Below, one piece after another: positions 2,701 to 7,728 of a stretch of DNA of 7,728 nucleotides. The stretch is from Candidatus Zhuqueibacterota bacterium. GTDB lineage: Bacteria > KSB1 > UBA2214. The notes below the pieces were generated by a model that did not search any database, had not been told where the DNA came from, and was given only the letters and a program-made list of their open reading frames with translations. The position numbers were made by a program, and so were the translations under genes. The stretch is from NCBI GenBank assembly GCA_022706175.1, contig JAKJDB010000105.1, positions 1 through 7,728 of the forward strand. The letters run 5' to 3'. Position 1 is the first letter of the stretch; every line of letters starts with the position of its first letter.

Positions 2701-3894
2701 ATGATCGAGCATCCATTGAATGGCGTTCGCGGAAAACCGGCAACGGGAAAATTATTGAACGGCACCATCTCCACCCCCATATTCCAGGGCACCGTGGCAG
2801 AGCTGTACGAAGCCTATCTGCGTTATCGCCTGATTTATGAGCGCAGTGAAGACCATGGTATTTTTCCATCCTGTCCCCCGGGCGAACACGCGCCGCTTCA
2901 GCCCGACACAGCCGACCCCAAACAGGGCGCCAGACACTATGCAGCCATCATCGGCGCCGGCGCCAAAATGCAAAAGATCATCAAATTCATCGAGCAGGTG
3001 GCAGACACCAACGCCACAGTGCTTCTCGAGGGGGAGAGCGGCACCGGGAAAGAGCTGGTCGCCAGGGCCCTGCATGAAAACAGCAGCCGGCGCTGCAAAC
3101 CGTTCGTCTCCCTCAATTGCGGCGCTCTGACGGAAACGCTGCTCGAATCCGAACTGTTCGGGCACATCAGAGGTTCGTTCACCGGCGCGGTGCAAAACAA
3201 AAAGGGCTGGTTCGAAACCGCGGACGGCGGCTCTATCTTTTTCGACGAGATCAGCGAGATGAGTGCGGGGCTTCAGGTCAAACTGCTGCGCATTCTGCAA
3301 ACAGGGGAGTATTCGCCTGTGGGCAGCAACGAGATCAGAAAGTGCAACGTCCGCATCATCGCAGCCACCAACCGTCATCTGGAATCCATGATCAAGGACG
3401 GCAAGTTCCGGCCGGATCTCTACTATCGATTGAACATTCTTTATCTTTATCTGCCGCCGTTGCGCGAACGACGAGAGGACATTCCTTTGCTGATCCGGCA
3501 CTATCTCGATCACTATGGCCGGCAGCTCGGAAAAGAGAATCTGCACTTGAGCGCCGGTGCGGAAGGCATTCTGCTCCAGTACGATTATCCCGGCAACATT
3601 CGAGAATTGGAGAACATTATTCTGCGTTCGCTCGTGATGGCCGAAGACGAGGAGGTGGAGCTGCGACATCTGCCGGAATCGGTCGTGCCGTGTGAAAGCG
3701 AAACAGCGGCCGATCAACAGAACTTTAGTCTGGTCAAAAAAGCGGTGATCGAACGGTTTGAGCGGGATTACCTCGAGACCACTCTGGAGAGAGCTCATGG
3801 CATTGTCGCCCAGGCGGCGAAAATCGCCGGCATCGATGCCAAGAATTTTTATCAGAAAATGCAGAAATATCAGATCAAGGCCTCGCATCGGTAA
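2701..3894 (+). CDS. Sigma-54-dependent enhancer-binding protein (AAA+ and Fis-type HTH, no recognised sensor domain)
   Basis: The 397-residue protein has the full NtrC-type AAA+ module: Walker A GESGTGKE (111-118), the sigma-54 contact loop as GSFTGA (158-163), Walker B GGSIFFDEIS (176-185), sensor I AATN (221-224), arginine-finger region FRPDLYYRLN (236-245) and sensor II YPGNIRELEN (296-305). A C-terminal Fis-like helix-turn-helix follows (about 357-391, ending KNFYQKMQKYQI). The family uses ATP hydrolysis to open promoters bound by sigma-54 RNA polymerase. The N-terminal 80 residues show no receiver, PAS or GAF features, only a tyrosine-rich helix-like stretch around 30-48, so the signal input is unknown. 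GAFTGA carries Ala-to-Ser at its second position; the key Phe and Thr are kept. The start at 2701 has an excellent AGGAGGA site. A sigma-54 promoter 129 bases past the stop is the obvious local target, and the next gene encodes a receiver-like protein. Class certain, ligand and exact regulon not. Confidence 0.93.
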   Translation: MIEHPLNGVRGKPATGKLLNGTISTPIFQGTVAELYEAYLRYRLIYERSEDHGIFPSCPPGEHAPLQPDTADPKQGARHYAAIIGAGAKMQKIIKFIEQVADTNATVLLEGESGTGKELVARALHENSSRRCKPFVSLNCGALTETLLESELFGHIRGSFTGAVQNKKGWFETADGGSIFFDEISEMSAGLQVKLLRILQTGEYSPVGSNEIRKCNVRIIAATNRHLESMIKDGKFRPDLYYRLNILYLYLPPLRERREDIPLLIRHYLDHYGRQLGKENLHLSAGAEGILLQYDYPGNIRELENIILRSLVMAEDEEVELRHLPESVVPCESETAADQQNFSLVKKAVIERFERDYLETTLERAHGIVAQAAKIAGIDAKNFYQKMQKYQIKASHR

Positions 3895-4022: not shown

Positions 4023-4038
4023 TGGCACGGCCCTTGCT
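4023..4038 (+). promoter_or_regulatory. Sigma-54 (-24/-12) promoter
   Basis: TGGCACGGCCCTTGCT matches the sigma-54 consensus TGGCACG-N4-TTGCW at every defined position, with GG (4024-4025) and GC (4036-4037) separated by the required 10 bases. The predicted start is about 4049. A match this complete is very unlikely by chance in a window this size, and it lies directly downstream of a sigma-54 activator gene. It should drive the pseudo-receiver gene and, by read-through, the giant gene at 4511. Confidence 0.8.
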
Positions 4039-4049: not shown

Positions 4050-4424
4050 ATGATGACTGAAGCGCCGGCAAGGATCCTTCTTTGCTGCGAAAATCTCTCT
4101 GAAATGGGGCCGATCGCTCTGGCTCTGGCGGAAAAAAGCATTCTTACGCTGGTGAGGGGTGTAAGAGACTTGGCGCCGCTGCTCGCAGAGTGCCGCTATC
4201 AGATCATCACTCTGTGCGTCCGCAAGCAAACGGAAGAGACGCTTTCGCTCCTCAGGCAAATGATCAAGCTTTCACCTAAAACCTGCATCGTGCTGGTGAA
4301 CGGACATCCGAACCAGGAACTCCTCCACGAGGCATTCCAGCTCGGCATCAAAGATTTTTTTCCAGCCCCGGTCAACCAAGGCCTGTTGATCGAGCGCATC
4401 GAGCATCTGTTGAGCAGCGCCTGA
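4050..4424 (+). CDS. Stand-alone degenerate receiver-like (pseudo-receiver) protein
   Basis: The 124-residue product has the layout of a CheY-type receiver: strand RILLCCE (8-14), helix, strand ILTLVRG (31-37), strand YQIITLCV (50-57), strand TCIVLVNGH (78-86), and a final LGIKDFFPAPV (98-108) that parallels the usual 'GAxDFLxKPV' before the last helix. The phosphorylation site is missing: the end of strand 3 (around L55-C56) has no aspartate, only one acidic residue (E14) follows strand 1, and the conserved lysine before the final Pro is alanine (A106). It is therefore probably not phosphorylated and acts by binding a partner; the receiver-less activator next door is the best guess. No DNA-binding domain is present. 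The start is ambiguous: ATG 4050 lies at the predicted transcription start, and ATG 4053 has AAGGG 4 bases before it, but that would lie outside a transcript starting at 4049. The fold is inferred by pattern, not by search. Confidence 0.65.
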   Translation: MMTEAPARILLCCENLSEMGPIALALAEKSILTLVRGVRDLAPLLAECRYQIITLCVRKQTEETLSLLRQMIKLSPKTCIVLVNGHPNQELLHEAFQLGIKDFFPAPVNQGLLIERIEHLLSSA

Positions 4425-4440
4425 GGTCGCTCTTCCGTCT

Positions 4441-4460
4441 TGCGGATTCATCTTTCCGCA
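4441..4460. repeat. Intercistronic inverted repeat TGCGGA-N8-TCCGCA
   Basis: TGCGGA (4441-4446) and TCCGCA (4455-4460) form a perfect 6-bp stem with an 8-base loop in the 86-base gap between the pseudo-receiver and the giant gene. There is no T-run after it, so it looks more like an intercistronic mRNA structure than a terminator. It may be coincidental. Confidence 0.3.
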
Positions 4461-4499: not shown

Positions 4500-4505
4500 G
4501 GAGGG
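4500..4505 (+). promoter_or_regulatory. Ribosome binding site GGAGGG for the giant gene
   Basis: GGAGGG at 4500-4505 is followed by 5 bases and the ATG at 4511. This supports 4511 rather than the out-of-frame ATG at 4489 as the functional start. Confidence 0.75.
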
Positions 4506-4510
4506 ACTCC

Positions 4511-7500
4511 ATGCCGACATCCAATACCAAGAAGCCGGTCGCTGGTGCGACCCGCAAGGGGCCAACCGCATCGGCGCGGTCAGCAGCCGCTCTCCCCACC
4601 CAAGGGACCGAGCTGCTCTCTTCCCGGCGCGTCGTGCGAGCATTGGATCATCTGAATTCGCAAAAACTCACCGACGAAACGGTGTTGTGGAACAGCCGCA
4701 TCCACGCCGTCACTCGTTTTCATCTGGAACTCGTGCAGGCCAGGCAGCACATCAGCGATATCAGCCGGCTTCTGGCCGTGCGCCGGCTTCCGCCGCATCT
4801 GTTCGGCCGCCTGGTGCAGCCAAACGGCGATCATGCCGCCTTTCTGCAGCTGACCGCTGTGATCAGCCATCAGCCGCCCAGCACGGCGGTCAGCAACAAG
4901 GACGGCGAGTTCGATCTGAAACTGCCGAGCCATGTCGAGTTTCCGTCCGCCGGATTAAAAGTGCAGGTGGCCGGGTCCAATACAAGCCTTGTGCTCACCC
5001 TGAACAGCAACGCCGTATCCGCGAACGGTTTTACAGGCGACCTTGGCTTGACGACAGAGCTGAAGCCGCTGCCGCTGAGCATCGTCGGGCAGTTGCAGGC
5101 CCTACTGCCATCCGCAGGGGGGGCGTCGGATCATAATGATTCTGACGCGGAACAGCCGACCACTCCCCATGTCGCCATGGGCGAGGCCGGATGCCATTCG
5201 CTCTATCTCAGCAACACCGGCGTAGACCGCTTTCCCTATTCGGTTTTCATCCGTCTGGTCGAGCCGCGAACCAGCATCCTCAATCCCGTCGTTGTTCAAA
5301 AAAATGGAAAGTCTGCCCGGCGTTACTATCCGATTCCCGATTACTATCCACTGTCAGAAAATCATCACAACGCGCAGGTGACCTATGTGGATCGTGTGCC
5401 GGTGGACCAGCCGATCAGCGTGGATGGTTTTCGCGATCAGCTGGTCGGAGTGGGATCGGGGAACGTTATTTCGCCCTGGGAGAGCGTGGCCATGGCGGGC
5501 ACACTCGGCCTCGGTTATCTGGTGCATATGGCGCAATGGTGGACGCCGAAAGGGCTGACGCTGGGCAATCTGGTATACTCTCTGCCGCTGGCGCCCGGTG
5601 AACAGCAGCGCGTGGCCATCTTTGAGCGCCGGGAGGTGAGCGCCGTGCGCGATATCGAAACCCTGTCGGTGCAGGAAAGCGCCGAGTTCGAGCAGGAGAC
5701 CGATGCCTCCACAGAATCGACCTTTCGCTCCGCGTTCCGCGAGGCCGAACGGGCCGGCAGCCGGTATCACACTTCCTCCGCTTCCGGAGGCGGCGGCCTG
5801 GATCTCGGCATCATCAGCTTTGGCGGCGGGGGATCCTCTTCCAGCGGCTCGTCGTCCAGTTGGTTGGAAGGACAGCGCAGCTATTCATCCCGGGCCGCGG
5901 AGAACGTGCACACCAGCGTGGAAAGGACGGCCGCCGCACGGCGCCAGGCCATCCGCACCAGCATGCGGTTGGCCATGGCCTCCGAGTCGGCCAACGTGAC
6001 CACCAAAGTCATCACCAATCACAACCACACGCGCGCACTGACCCTGCAGTATTGGGAGGTGCAGCGATTATATGAAGTGTCCACCACCGTCGAGGGAATC
6101 ACGCTGGTCTGTCTGGTGCCGCTGTCGGTCGTGCGCTTTCTGCCCGTGGGCCAACCGCTCACGCTGGATTACACAACCACCGCGGACACCCGGCGCGAGA
6201 TACTGACCCGCTACTCACAGATTCTGAAACATATCGACATTCTCGAGCGGACGCTGCCCAGGCGCTTTCAGAACGGTCTGGCGCTGTTGCGCCAGTTTGC
6301 CGGGGATCCCATCGCCCAATTCCAGCCCGCAGGCAGCGCAGCCGAGGACGTCATTCAGTTCAATCTCACCGGCACATTTTTACCGTTCGAGGATATCTAT
6401 GTCCGCGCGGTGACTAAAAGGGGGACGCGACTGGGGCCGGTGCAACTCACCGGCCCGGTCAGCGCTGTGCCGGAAGTTCGGGACGATCCGGAGCAATCCT
6501 CCCCGACGCAGGATGCCTTGATGGCGTATCTGCGCGATCGCCGCGCCGGTAACGCCAGTACGCTCTCAGGCAGCCTGGCGGTTCCCTGTTCCCTGGCGAG
6601 AAACGAGATCATCGGCTTTGAAGTGAGCCGGCGATTCCGCCAGTTGGACTATGACCTGGTGAATCCGCATCTGCAAGCAGCCTATGTGCTGAATAAAATA
6701 TTCGGCACTCCGTTGCCGGCGAATCAACCGGATCACATGATCGCCGGCACGGTGCATCTGACCGCCAAGACGCTGGAACAGGAACTCGGCGGACCCTATG
6801 TGTGGCATTTTTCAGCCAGGATACGAGCCGTGAATGGAATGTCAGAAGAGACTTATGCGCACGATTACATCTCTGCCGCATCGCGTCAGGAGCTGCCGCC
6901 GGACCAGATGCCCATACCGGCCATCCAGCTGGCGCCGGTGTTGCGCTACACCCAGCTTTTAGAGATCGAACAGATGGTGCAGCATGTGGTGCGCAATACC
7001 GTGCACTATTCCAAGATGATCTGGCTGTCGATGACGCCGGAAGAACGGGCGATCATGCTCGAGGGATTCACCATCGGAGTTCCGGCCGGCGGCATTGAAG
7101 ACGAGACTCAGGATGTGCCTTTGCTGAACTGCGTGGAAAACCGGGTGCTGGGCTTTTACGGCAATTCAATGATCATGCCGTTCTTTATTCCCTACCAGGT
7201 CGCTGACCAGGTGTTGAACAATGCAACTATTCAGAGCAACCTGCTGGAATTTCACAGGAGCGGATTCTTGCCGCGCAAATCCGTCATCGCGCTGCCGACC
7301 TCCGGCGTGCTGGGAGAAGCGGTGCTCGGCAACTGCCCATCGGCGGAAAAAATCGACCTGACGCGTTTTTGGCACTGGGCGGACAGTCCGGCGGACAGCG
7401 CGCCCGAGATCGCCAGTGTGCAAGTGCCCACCGCCGGCGCGTCTCTTACTGCAGGGCTGCAGACCTCCAGCGCACTGACTTCCCTGCAACCGCTGATCAA

Positions 7501-7728
7501 CAACATCAACGCCACTCCCACGGCAGCCGGAGCGGATGCCGCGGTAGTGCAAGCGATGATCAAGTCAGCGGCGGAGCAAAAGGGCTTTGACACCGGCATG
7601 ACCGGCGCCGAGCAGCTGGCGAAAATCATTCTCGGCGATCAGCAGAACGCGGACAGGGCGCGAGCGGATGCAGTGAAGAACACCCACCAATTCCAGGCGC
7701 AGGCATTGGCCACGGCGGGAAATATCCT
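4511..7728 (+). CDS. Giant protein of unknown function with an N-terminal carboxypeptidase-regulatory-like domain (3' end cut by window edge)
   Basis: The frame is open for 1072 codons to the right edge. The N terminus (1-35) is basic and Ser/Ala-rich with no signal peptide. Residues about 98-190 look like a transthyretin/carboxypeptidase-regulatory-like beta domain (FGRLVQPNG at 98-106, then NKDGEFDLKLP around 129-139). Later landmarks are LPLAPGEQQRVAIFERRE (358-375), a helical acidic stretch (about 376-415), a Gly/Ser-rich linker (about 421-449), an Arg/Ala-rich helix (about 460-495), ITNHNHTRALTLQYWEV (501-517) followed by a beta-rich part, and LPTSGVLGEAVLG (928-940) leading to FWHWADSP (953-960). 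After that the sequence becomes Ala/Gln-rich and helical. Only a weak hydrophobic patch (about 325-345) is seen, so it is not an ordinary membrane protein. The multi-segment build could suit a structural or surface assembly component, but I do not recognise a named family or catalytic motif. It sits 86 bases behind the pseudo-receiver gene and probably shares the sigma-54 promoter. Confidence 0.85.
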   Translation, partial: MPTSNTKKPVAGATRKGPTASARSAAALPTQGTELLSSRRVVRALDHLNSQKLTDETVLWNSRIHAVTRFHLELVQARQHISDISRLLAVRRLPPHLFGRLVQPNGDHAAFLQLTAVISHQPPSTAVSNKDGEFDLKLPSHVEFPSAGLKVQVAGSNTSLVLTLNSNAVSANGFTGDLGLTTELKPLPLSIVGQLQALLPSAGGASDHNDSDAEQPTTPHVAMGEAGCHSLYLSNTGVDRFPYSVFIRLVEPRTSILNPVVVQKNGKSARRYYPIPDYYPLSENHHNAQVTYVDRVPVDQPISVDGFRDQLVGVGSGNVISPWESVAMAGTLGLGYLVHMAQWWTPKGLTLGNLVYSLPLAPGEQQRVAIFERREVSAVRDIETLSVQESAEFEQETDASTESTFRSAFREAERAGSRYHTSSASGGGGLDLGIISFGGGGSSSSGSSSSWLEGQRSYSSRAAENVHTSVERTAAARRQAIRTSMRLAMASESANVTTKVITNHNHTRALTLQYWEVQRLYEVSTTVEGITLVCLVPLSVVRFLPVGQPLTLDYTTTADTRREILTRYSQILKHIDILERTLPRRFQNGLALLRQFAGDPIAQFQPAGSAAEDVIQFNLTGTFLPFEDIYVRAVTKRGTRLGPVQLTGPVSAVPEVRDDPEQSSPTQDALMAYLRDRRAGNASTLSGSLAVPCSLARNEIIGFEVSRRFRQLDYDLVNPHLQAAYVLNKIFGTPLPANQPDHMIAGTVHLTAKTLEQELGGPYVWHFSARIRAVNGMSEETYAHDYISAASRQELPPDQMPIPAIQLAPVLRYTQLLEIEQMVQHVVRNTVHYSKMIWLSMTPEERAIMLEGFTIGVPAGGIEDETQDVPLLNCVENRVLGFYGNSMIMPFFIPYQVADQVLNNATIQSNLLEFHRSGFLPRKSVIALPTSGVLGEAVLGNCPSAEKIDLTRFWHWADSPADSAPEIASVQVPTAGASLTAGLQTSSALTSLQPLINNINATPTAAGADAAVVQAMIKSAAEQKGFDTGMTGAEQLAKIILGDQQNADRARADAVKNTHQFQAQALATAGNI

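Follow-up and report, generated by a model that had tools for sequence, protein, structure and literature searches.

A giant protein and its downstream partner form an apparently undescribed two-gene cassette found in many bacterial phyla and some archaea

Several pore formers of the aerolysin/Tpp/Bin and protective-antigen types lack signal peptides, and the ClyA/HlyE-type alpha pore-formers, which are mainly helical, enter the membrane with a hydrophobic tip on long helices. TANFOR-domain polymorphic toxins occur almost only in Bacteroidetes; a Sec signal is predicted for about 87% of them, and the predicted antibacterial members often have downstream immunity genes (PMC7073777). Here we describe a giant protein gene that occupies positions 4511 to 7728 of a 7,728-nucleotide stretch of DNA (the window) from Candidatus Zhuqueibacterota bacterium (assembly GCA_022706175.1, contig JAKJDB010000105.1), and a partner gene that follows it. 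An earlier note on this DNA had proposed the giant as the likely output of a dedicated sigma-54 module.

The giant family resembles the TANFOR proteins in having a large conserved scaffold and variable C-terminal domains that include peptidoglycan hydrolases and nucleases (PMC7073777). In contrast to what is stated there, the giant family spans many phyla and some archaea, has almost no signal peptides, and is accompanied in one of its two clades (clade 1) by one constant partner. The window giant also has no NCBIfam match, although the presence of TANFOR in that library was unchecked. Long antiparallel beta hairpins that flank an insertion are predicted in the giant as in the aerolysin/Tpp/Bin-type toxins and the protective-antigen pore. 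In a Foldseek search with the giant core model, the 13 best rows were all of these types, and every match was statistically insignificant. However, these toxins have no sequence similarity to the giant (Pfam, NCBIfam, and PDB sequence and profile searches), the insertion of the giant is a predicted helical hairpin, a partner gene is present, and the giant is about three times longer than the Tpp, Bin and Cry78 chains that were matched. The ClyA/HlyE-type proteins likewise have a tip on helices, but the helices of the giant sit in a beta core and no search match links the two. The PLAT/C2-like domains of lipoxygenases, of pancreatic lipases and of the C terminus of clostridial phospholipase C are 8 to 10% identical to the giant in the matched rows. 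The corresponding region of the giant has no Pfam PLAT match and is a single domain within a far larger protein.

The giant gene and its downstream partner

The giant frame runs from the ATG at 4511 to the end of the window without a stop codon.

4511 to 7728, plus strand: giant protein gene; 1,072 codons in the window (4511-7726), 3' end open
4500 to 4505, plus strand: Shine-Dalgarno-like GGAGGG before the giant gene, read from the sequence

The same Met start is used in P0001/L101 (94% identical to the window giant) and in L007 (92%). P0001, which matches the L101 gene by length and start, has 1,131 residues, the last of which form a short Gly-, Ser-, Thr- and Lys-rich tail; about 59 residues of the window giant are lost beyond the window end. 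The ratio of nonsynonymous to synonymous substitution rates (dN/dS) was 0.09 against the 92%-identical L007 gene over 1,072 codons. The giant frame is thus a genuine gene on which purifying selection is strong; the earlier note had already seen good coding character over its 1,072 open residues.

That note had also seen no known enzyme, transporter or toxin motif, and no full-length match to a characterised family appeared. The best Pfam match had an E-value of 0.2, and nothing in Pfam was convincing. NCBIfam and PHROGs gave no match, PADLOC gave no family at E-values up to 1, and the best PDB matches had E-values of 1.6 by sequence and 0.61 by profile. Among the best-ranked papers of the open-licence full-text literature, no title or opening of an abstract describes the family. 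The lack of a signal peptide was likewise borne out by hydropathy: no known export signal or trafficking domain was seen in the window giant (hydropathy, NCBIfam and PADLOC), and its most hydrophobic 19-mer, at residues 529 to 547, is not a strongly hydrophobic membrane helix. By a simple hydropathy rule (a strongly hydrophobic 11-mer within the first 45 residues), 2 of the 114 Met-starting giants among the best 120 of 594 homologues had a signal-like N terminus. In a second list of giants, the N terminus was hydrophobic in 8 of 116.

At least 594 giant homologues were found in a search of 5.8 billion proteins, and the best 120 of them are 44 to 94% identical to the query over 73 to 100% of its length. 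A genome scan gave 80 of 95 loci in many bacterial phyla and in two archaeal bins (L014 and L055, on contigs of about 11 kb); because the scan depended on two short peptide patterns, its counts are a sample. Further archaeal hints are P0031, which carries the name Bathyarchaeota and lies on a contig of 1.7 Mb, and two Haladaptatus plasmid records. With six plasmid loci added to the 80, we examined 86 loci. A tree of the core (76 rows) has two clades with support of 100/100, and phyla are mixed in it. The phylum label changes 36 times in the tree, against a minimum of 15 and a shuffled mean of 43, and none of 200 shuffles was as low. The phylum labels are clustered, yet far from one origin each. 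This mixture would suit horizontal transfer but is no proof of it, and bins may contain stray contigs.

Just outside the window, the partner gene starts directly downstream of the giant and in the same orientation. It follows the giant in 47 of the 47 clade-1 loci whose contig continues, and the other 11 of the 58 clade-1 contigs end 0 to 2 bases after the giant gene. Clade 1 was here defined by the presence of the partner, or by a contig end at the giant gene together with a high giant score; the tree agrees with this assignment for all 51 clade-1 and all 24 clade-2 loci in it. Near-duplicate loci are included in the count (for example L001/L002, L003/L006 and L043/L044), so there are fewer independent cases of the partner. 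In clade 2 (28 loci), 25 loci left 1.2 kb or more for a further gene, and no partner was found in any of them. Partner distances and giant distances correlate with r = 0.88 over 43 loci, a value reached by 0 of 1,000 permutations. Within the phylum of L007, 2 of 82 genomes encode the full-length giant, and just those two have the partner. Giant and partner therefore constitute an apparently undescribed two-gene cassette, and neither gene is named in the family libraries that were searched. The earlier note had seen in the giant the best candidate for an undescribed system and had looked to the regulators as possible companions; a recurrent companion does exist, but it is the downstream gene beyond the window.

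We found 660 partner homologues. A TIG domain is present in 29 of the best 120 of these, and the five partners that we scanned gave no Pfam family save a TIG domain in one. The PDB yielded no solved relative of the partner (best E-value, 0.46), and none of the 117 partners checked had a signal-like N terminus. A TIG-like module also occurs at the C terminus of the giant in L016, L017 and L024; the one in L017 was missed by Pfam and was detected with a profile of the TIG domains of partners. Because this module is found both at the giant C terminus and at the partner N terminus, we infer that the two ends probably lie together. There was no giant-partner fusion among 240 giants and 120 partners.

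Three more genomes of the L007 phylum encode short relatives, with open frames of 463 to 479 codons (736-2172 on the minus strand in L098; 1267-2655 on the plus strand in L099 and L100). They share only the beta core with its hairpin and had no Pfam match above the cut-off (L098 and L099) and no PDB match (L099). Whatever its function, the family is a well-defined target for annotation and structure determination, with a constant cassette, a shared core and relatives of about 460 residues. In L061 (clade 2), a PA-IL-like lectin domain lies within the scaffold, at giant residues 536 to 653 (E-value, 2e-8). The giant gene is in two open pieces in L008 (9164-13420) and is partly masked in L084 (9014-12794). 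The only viral structural match with an E-value below 0.001 was Yasminevirus A0A5K0U6Q4, an uncharacterised protein of 642 residues (E-value, 2.9e-6; template modeling score at most 0.11), which is possibly a distant relative of the giant.

Predicted architecture and a possible mode of action

Structure models place a transthyretin-like domain, long beta strands with a helical hairpin, a PLAT/C2-like domain and a tail in this order.

4781 to 5062, plus strand: predicted transthyretin/CNA-B-like beta sandwich (residues 91-184; model)
5507 to 5653, plus strand: predicted first long beta hairpin of the core (residues 333-381; models, and conserved positions in alignments A4 and A5)
5669 to 5959, plus strand: predicted helical hairpin inserted in the beta core (residues 387-483; models, confidence low to middling)
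5747 to 5875, plus strand: hairpin tip, the proposed membrane-inserting segment (residues 413-455; Gly/Ser-rich, hardly charged)
5966 to 6121, plus strand: predicted second long beta hairpin of the core (residues 486-537; NHNHxxALTxxYWEVxR motif; models, alignments A4 and A5)
6341 to 6925, plus strand: predicted PLAT/C2-like beta domain (residues 611-805)
7292 to 7390, plus strand: conserved C-terminal motif LPTSGVLGEAVLGNCPSAEKIDLTRFWHW (residues 928-960; invariant columns in alignments A1 and A5)
7607 to 7723, plus strand: predicted C-terminal helix (residues 1033-1071; model)

The motif YSLPLAPGE of the first core hairpin is common to both clades, and the C-terminal motif LPTSGVLGEAVLGNCPSAEKIDLTRFWHW is present in similar form in both. 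The VIA rows lie mainly over residues 611 to 805, and over 138 to 311 of the core model; other folds are not claimed to be absent. The beta domain that the earlier note had placed near residue 98 is modelled at residues 91 to 184. Its Gly/Ser linker is real as a stretch, at about residues 425 to 455, but the models place it at the tip of the helical hairpin and not in a simple linker.

On this architecture, together with the conserved gene pair and the occasional wall-active tails, we tentatively base our preferred explanation, namely, that the giant is a membrane-inserting scaffold with a partner and an optional C-terminal payload. Neither giant nor partner would carry a Sec signal, and both would leave the cell through lysis or along some other route. 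The partner would bind near the giant C terminus, and the PLAT/C2-like domain would contact a lipid surface. The long beta core would then push the helical hairpin, with its Gly-rich and scarcely charged tip, into the target membrane. The C-terminal tail would be an optional payload slot, with peptidoglycan-active or other enzyme domains in some relatives. In the lineage of the window, where the tail is short, the giant would be a membrane-penetrating or pore-forming device alone. Used antagonistically, the giant may be an overlooked microbial weapon. If membrane insertion is true, this would be a new architecture for such weapons, and the partner, the tip of the hairpin and the payload slot would be handles for testing it.

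The composition of the tip bears on this proposal. In the 76 aligned rows, 66% of the tip residues are Gly, Ser, Ala or Thr and 6% are charged, compared with 35% and 20% in the whole domain. The median uncharged run is 32 residues, and the tip is flanked by predicted helices. However, large hydrophobic residues make up 20% of the tip and 30% of the whole domain in the same rows. This result and the long unnamed tails of clade 2 (below) fall on different sides and leave the relative weight of the explanations as it was.

A more far-reaching version, which we regard as somewhat doubtful, is a new two-protein membrane-penetrating machine without sequence kinship to any known toxin or secretion system. 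Its Gly-rich tip would pierce the envelope, its tail or partner would present interchangeable wall-cutting or nuclease cargo, and it would be shared horizontally between bacteria and archaea.

C-terminal tails and competing explanations

The predicted C-terminal helix (residues 1033 to 1071) precedes the tail, which is the slot for extra domains in other members. With the tail boundary set by alignment or by a motif, clade-1 tails have at most 184 residues after the conserved region and are often of low complexity. Clade-2 tails have 239 to 518 residues in 24 of 28 loci and are mostly of unknown kind. Enzyme domains were found in single members: a GH25 lysozyme in L086 (E-value, 1e-39), Amidase_2 in P0250 and P0313, peptidase C70 with Amidase_6 in P0311, C70 (papain-like) in P0349, and Beta-lactamase2 in P0115, with a weak beta-lactamase match in L080. 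Other tails carry OmpA (P0356; weak matches in L025 and L041) or Big_3_5 (P0286, just below the cut-off). Ten tails were scanned with Pfam, and those of L004, L017, L037, L067, L071 and L074 gave nothing. The tails of L072, L074, L076 and L085 look GH19-like, from motifs recognised by eye; L074 had no Pfam match, and an endolysin at an E-value of 0.1 was all that the PDB returned. A precomputed Pfam entry is present in 9 of 240 listed giants, two of them N-terminal. PG_binding_1 (P0116) and HHH_3 (P0008) were rejected as payload because both are N-terminal, outside the payload slot. Judged by these matches, a conserved scaffold with varying C-terminal enzyme domains describes the family, through single members, and not the lineage of the window, which has only a short tail.

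Ala/Gly-rich tails that close in a short hydrophobic end (...LALLA, ...AILLA) are seen in P0044, P0046, P0057, P0083, P0107, P0116 and others. Judged by eye, L003, L020, L021, L023, L027, L032, L040, L042, L043 and others seem to share a C-terminal segment that looks helical and is about 100 residues long.

It is somewhat unlikely that the giant is a surface or extracellular structural protein such as an adhesin or matrix scaffold. Its beta domains and low-complexity tails would hold it in a layer, with OmpA, peptidoglycan-binding and TIG domains as anchors, and the enzymes would be incidental wall-remodelling fusions. The TTR-like and PLAT-like domains of the giant fit such a role, as do the TIG domain at the partner N terminus (29 of the 120 listed), OmpA in P0356 and more weakly in L025 and L041, PG_binding_1 in P0116, and the Gly/Ser/Thr-rich tails of many clade-1 members. 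However, 112 of 114 giants and 117 of 117 partners have no signal-like N terminus, and the window giant, the one protein examined in this respect, lacks a strongly hydrophobic membrane helix. Moreover, the peptidoglycan-active domains come from several unrelated families, which suggests attack or remodelling.

We consider it unlikely that the giant is a polymorphic-toxin carrier proper, in which the conserved 1,000 residues deliver and the variable C terminus is the toxin that enters the envelope of a rival; members without a payload would then be degenerate or would use the partner as payload. The unrelated enzyme domains at one place, the 24 of 28 clade-2 loci with 239 to 518 residues beyond the conserved part, and the nuclease-like YEIKP tails of L004 and P0048 (by eye only) argue for it. 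However, a recognised enzyme is present in few members. In addition, one and the same kind of partner accompanies every clade-1 tail, so it is no cognate immunity protein; no systematic search was made for immunity genes elsewhere near payload members.

It is quite improbable that the giant forms an assembly inside the cell, such as a stress body, cage or filament, which sigma-54 would induce here and different regulators in other lineages, and in which the hairpin would serve for oligomerisation. The giants do lack signal peptides and the nearby regulators do differ, perhaps by chance (a sigma-54 activator in the window and L040, a response regulator in Ruegeria, BTAD in L009 and a protein kinase in L019), but extracellular-type and peptidoglycan-active domains are fused in relatives and proteases adjoin the giant in some loci.

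Two further identities were rejected. The phage-tail or contractile-injection link suggested by the earlier note failed, with no relative by sequence in PHROGs, phage records or viral contigs; neither the annotated plasmid neighbourhoods nor the 20 upstream neighbours that were scanned included tail genes. A defence system was discarded because PADLOC gave no match.

The sigma-54 module and other neighbouring genes

In the lineage of the window, the membrane-inserting scaffold that we tentatively favour would be made from one operon of the receiver-like gene, the giant and the partner, turned on by the sigma-54 activator.

2701 to 3894, plus strand: sigma-54-dependent activator with an AAA+ domain, lid and Fis-type helix-turn-helix (PF00158, E-value 2e-68; PF25601; PF02954)
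4023 to 4038, plus strand: sigma-54 (-24/-12) promoter TGGCACGGCCCTTGCT, an exact match to the consensus
4050 to 4424, plus strand: small receiver-like protein of 124 residues, degenerate (PF00072, E-value 6e-4, below the Pfam cut-off)

The activator start at 2701 was inferred from conservation with L007 and L101. The protein has a short N-terminal region in which no sensor domain was recognised, and its dN/dS was 0.09 against L007. The receiver-like gene had a dN/dS of 0.22 in the same comparison, and its product has no aspartate, by eye, at the expected phosphorylation position. The first base of the sigma-54 site lies 27 bases before the receiver-like start, and the GG and GC elements are conserved 27 bases before the same start in L007 (TGGCATTGCCCTTGCA) and L101 (TGGCATTGCCTTTGCA). 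Three matches with at most two mismatches were found, and 51 of 200 shuffles reached as many. The weight of the site therefore lies in its exactness, place and conservation. L007 has equal or better sites by simple score at 12420 and 12023 (other strand), both within the giant gene, so the score alone proves nothing. A terminator-like stem at 4434-4446 is weak and at chance level.

The promoter and the two regulatory genes that the earlier note had put directly before the giant are all real, but the sigma-54 site precedes the receiver-like gene and not the giant itself. The order of activator, receiver-like gene, giant and partner is kept in L007 and L101, which supports a dedicated module in this lineage, though not a general one. 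In the fetched flanks, some of which are short and limit these counts, a sigma-54 activator (E-value below 1e-40) was present in 3 of the 57 clade-1 loci that remain when L007 is set aside (L027, L037 and L040) and in none of the 28 clade-2 loci. None of these 57 had a receiver-like gene just upstream of the giant; outside L007, the receiver-like protein had a single weak match, in L027, which does not adjoin the giant. The sigma-54 regulation therefore looks lineage-specific, and on these counts we reject the regulators as part of a general system.

Other upstream genes were rejected as conserved partners since they differ by locus. Upstream frames were taken by the longest open reading frame rule, and those of L008, L030, L033, L034 and L048, which gave no family, are probably not genes. 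The domains that recur among 20 scanned upstream proteins are neprosin (L001 and L015) and TPR repeats (L019 and L026); no other gene-specific domain recurs among them. A neprosin-type protease (prolyl endopeptidase) lies directly upstream of the giant in L001, L002, L013, L015 and L046, as identified by annotation, by Pfam (L015 and L001) and by a sequence cluster of L001, L002, L013 and L046. L013, L015 and L046 form one well-supported tree group over three phyla, and L001 and L002 are outside the tree. Because it is found upstream in loci of three phyla, the protease may in those loci be part of the cassette. A subtilase lies directly upstream of the giant in L027. At the other end of the window, a PMT_2-like membrane glycosyltransferase (E-value, 9e-8) is encoded on the minus strand at 2-1774, and L007 has a frame with a start similar to that of this protein on the corresponding side, as has L101, where the frame is broken into pieces.

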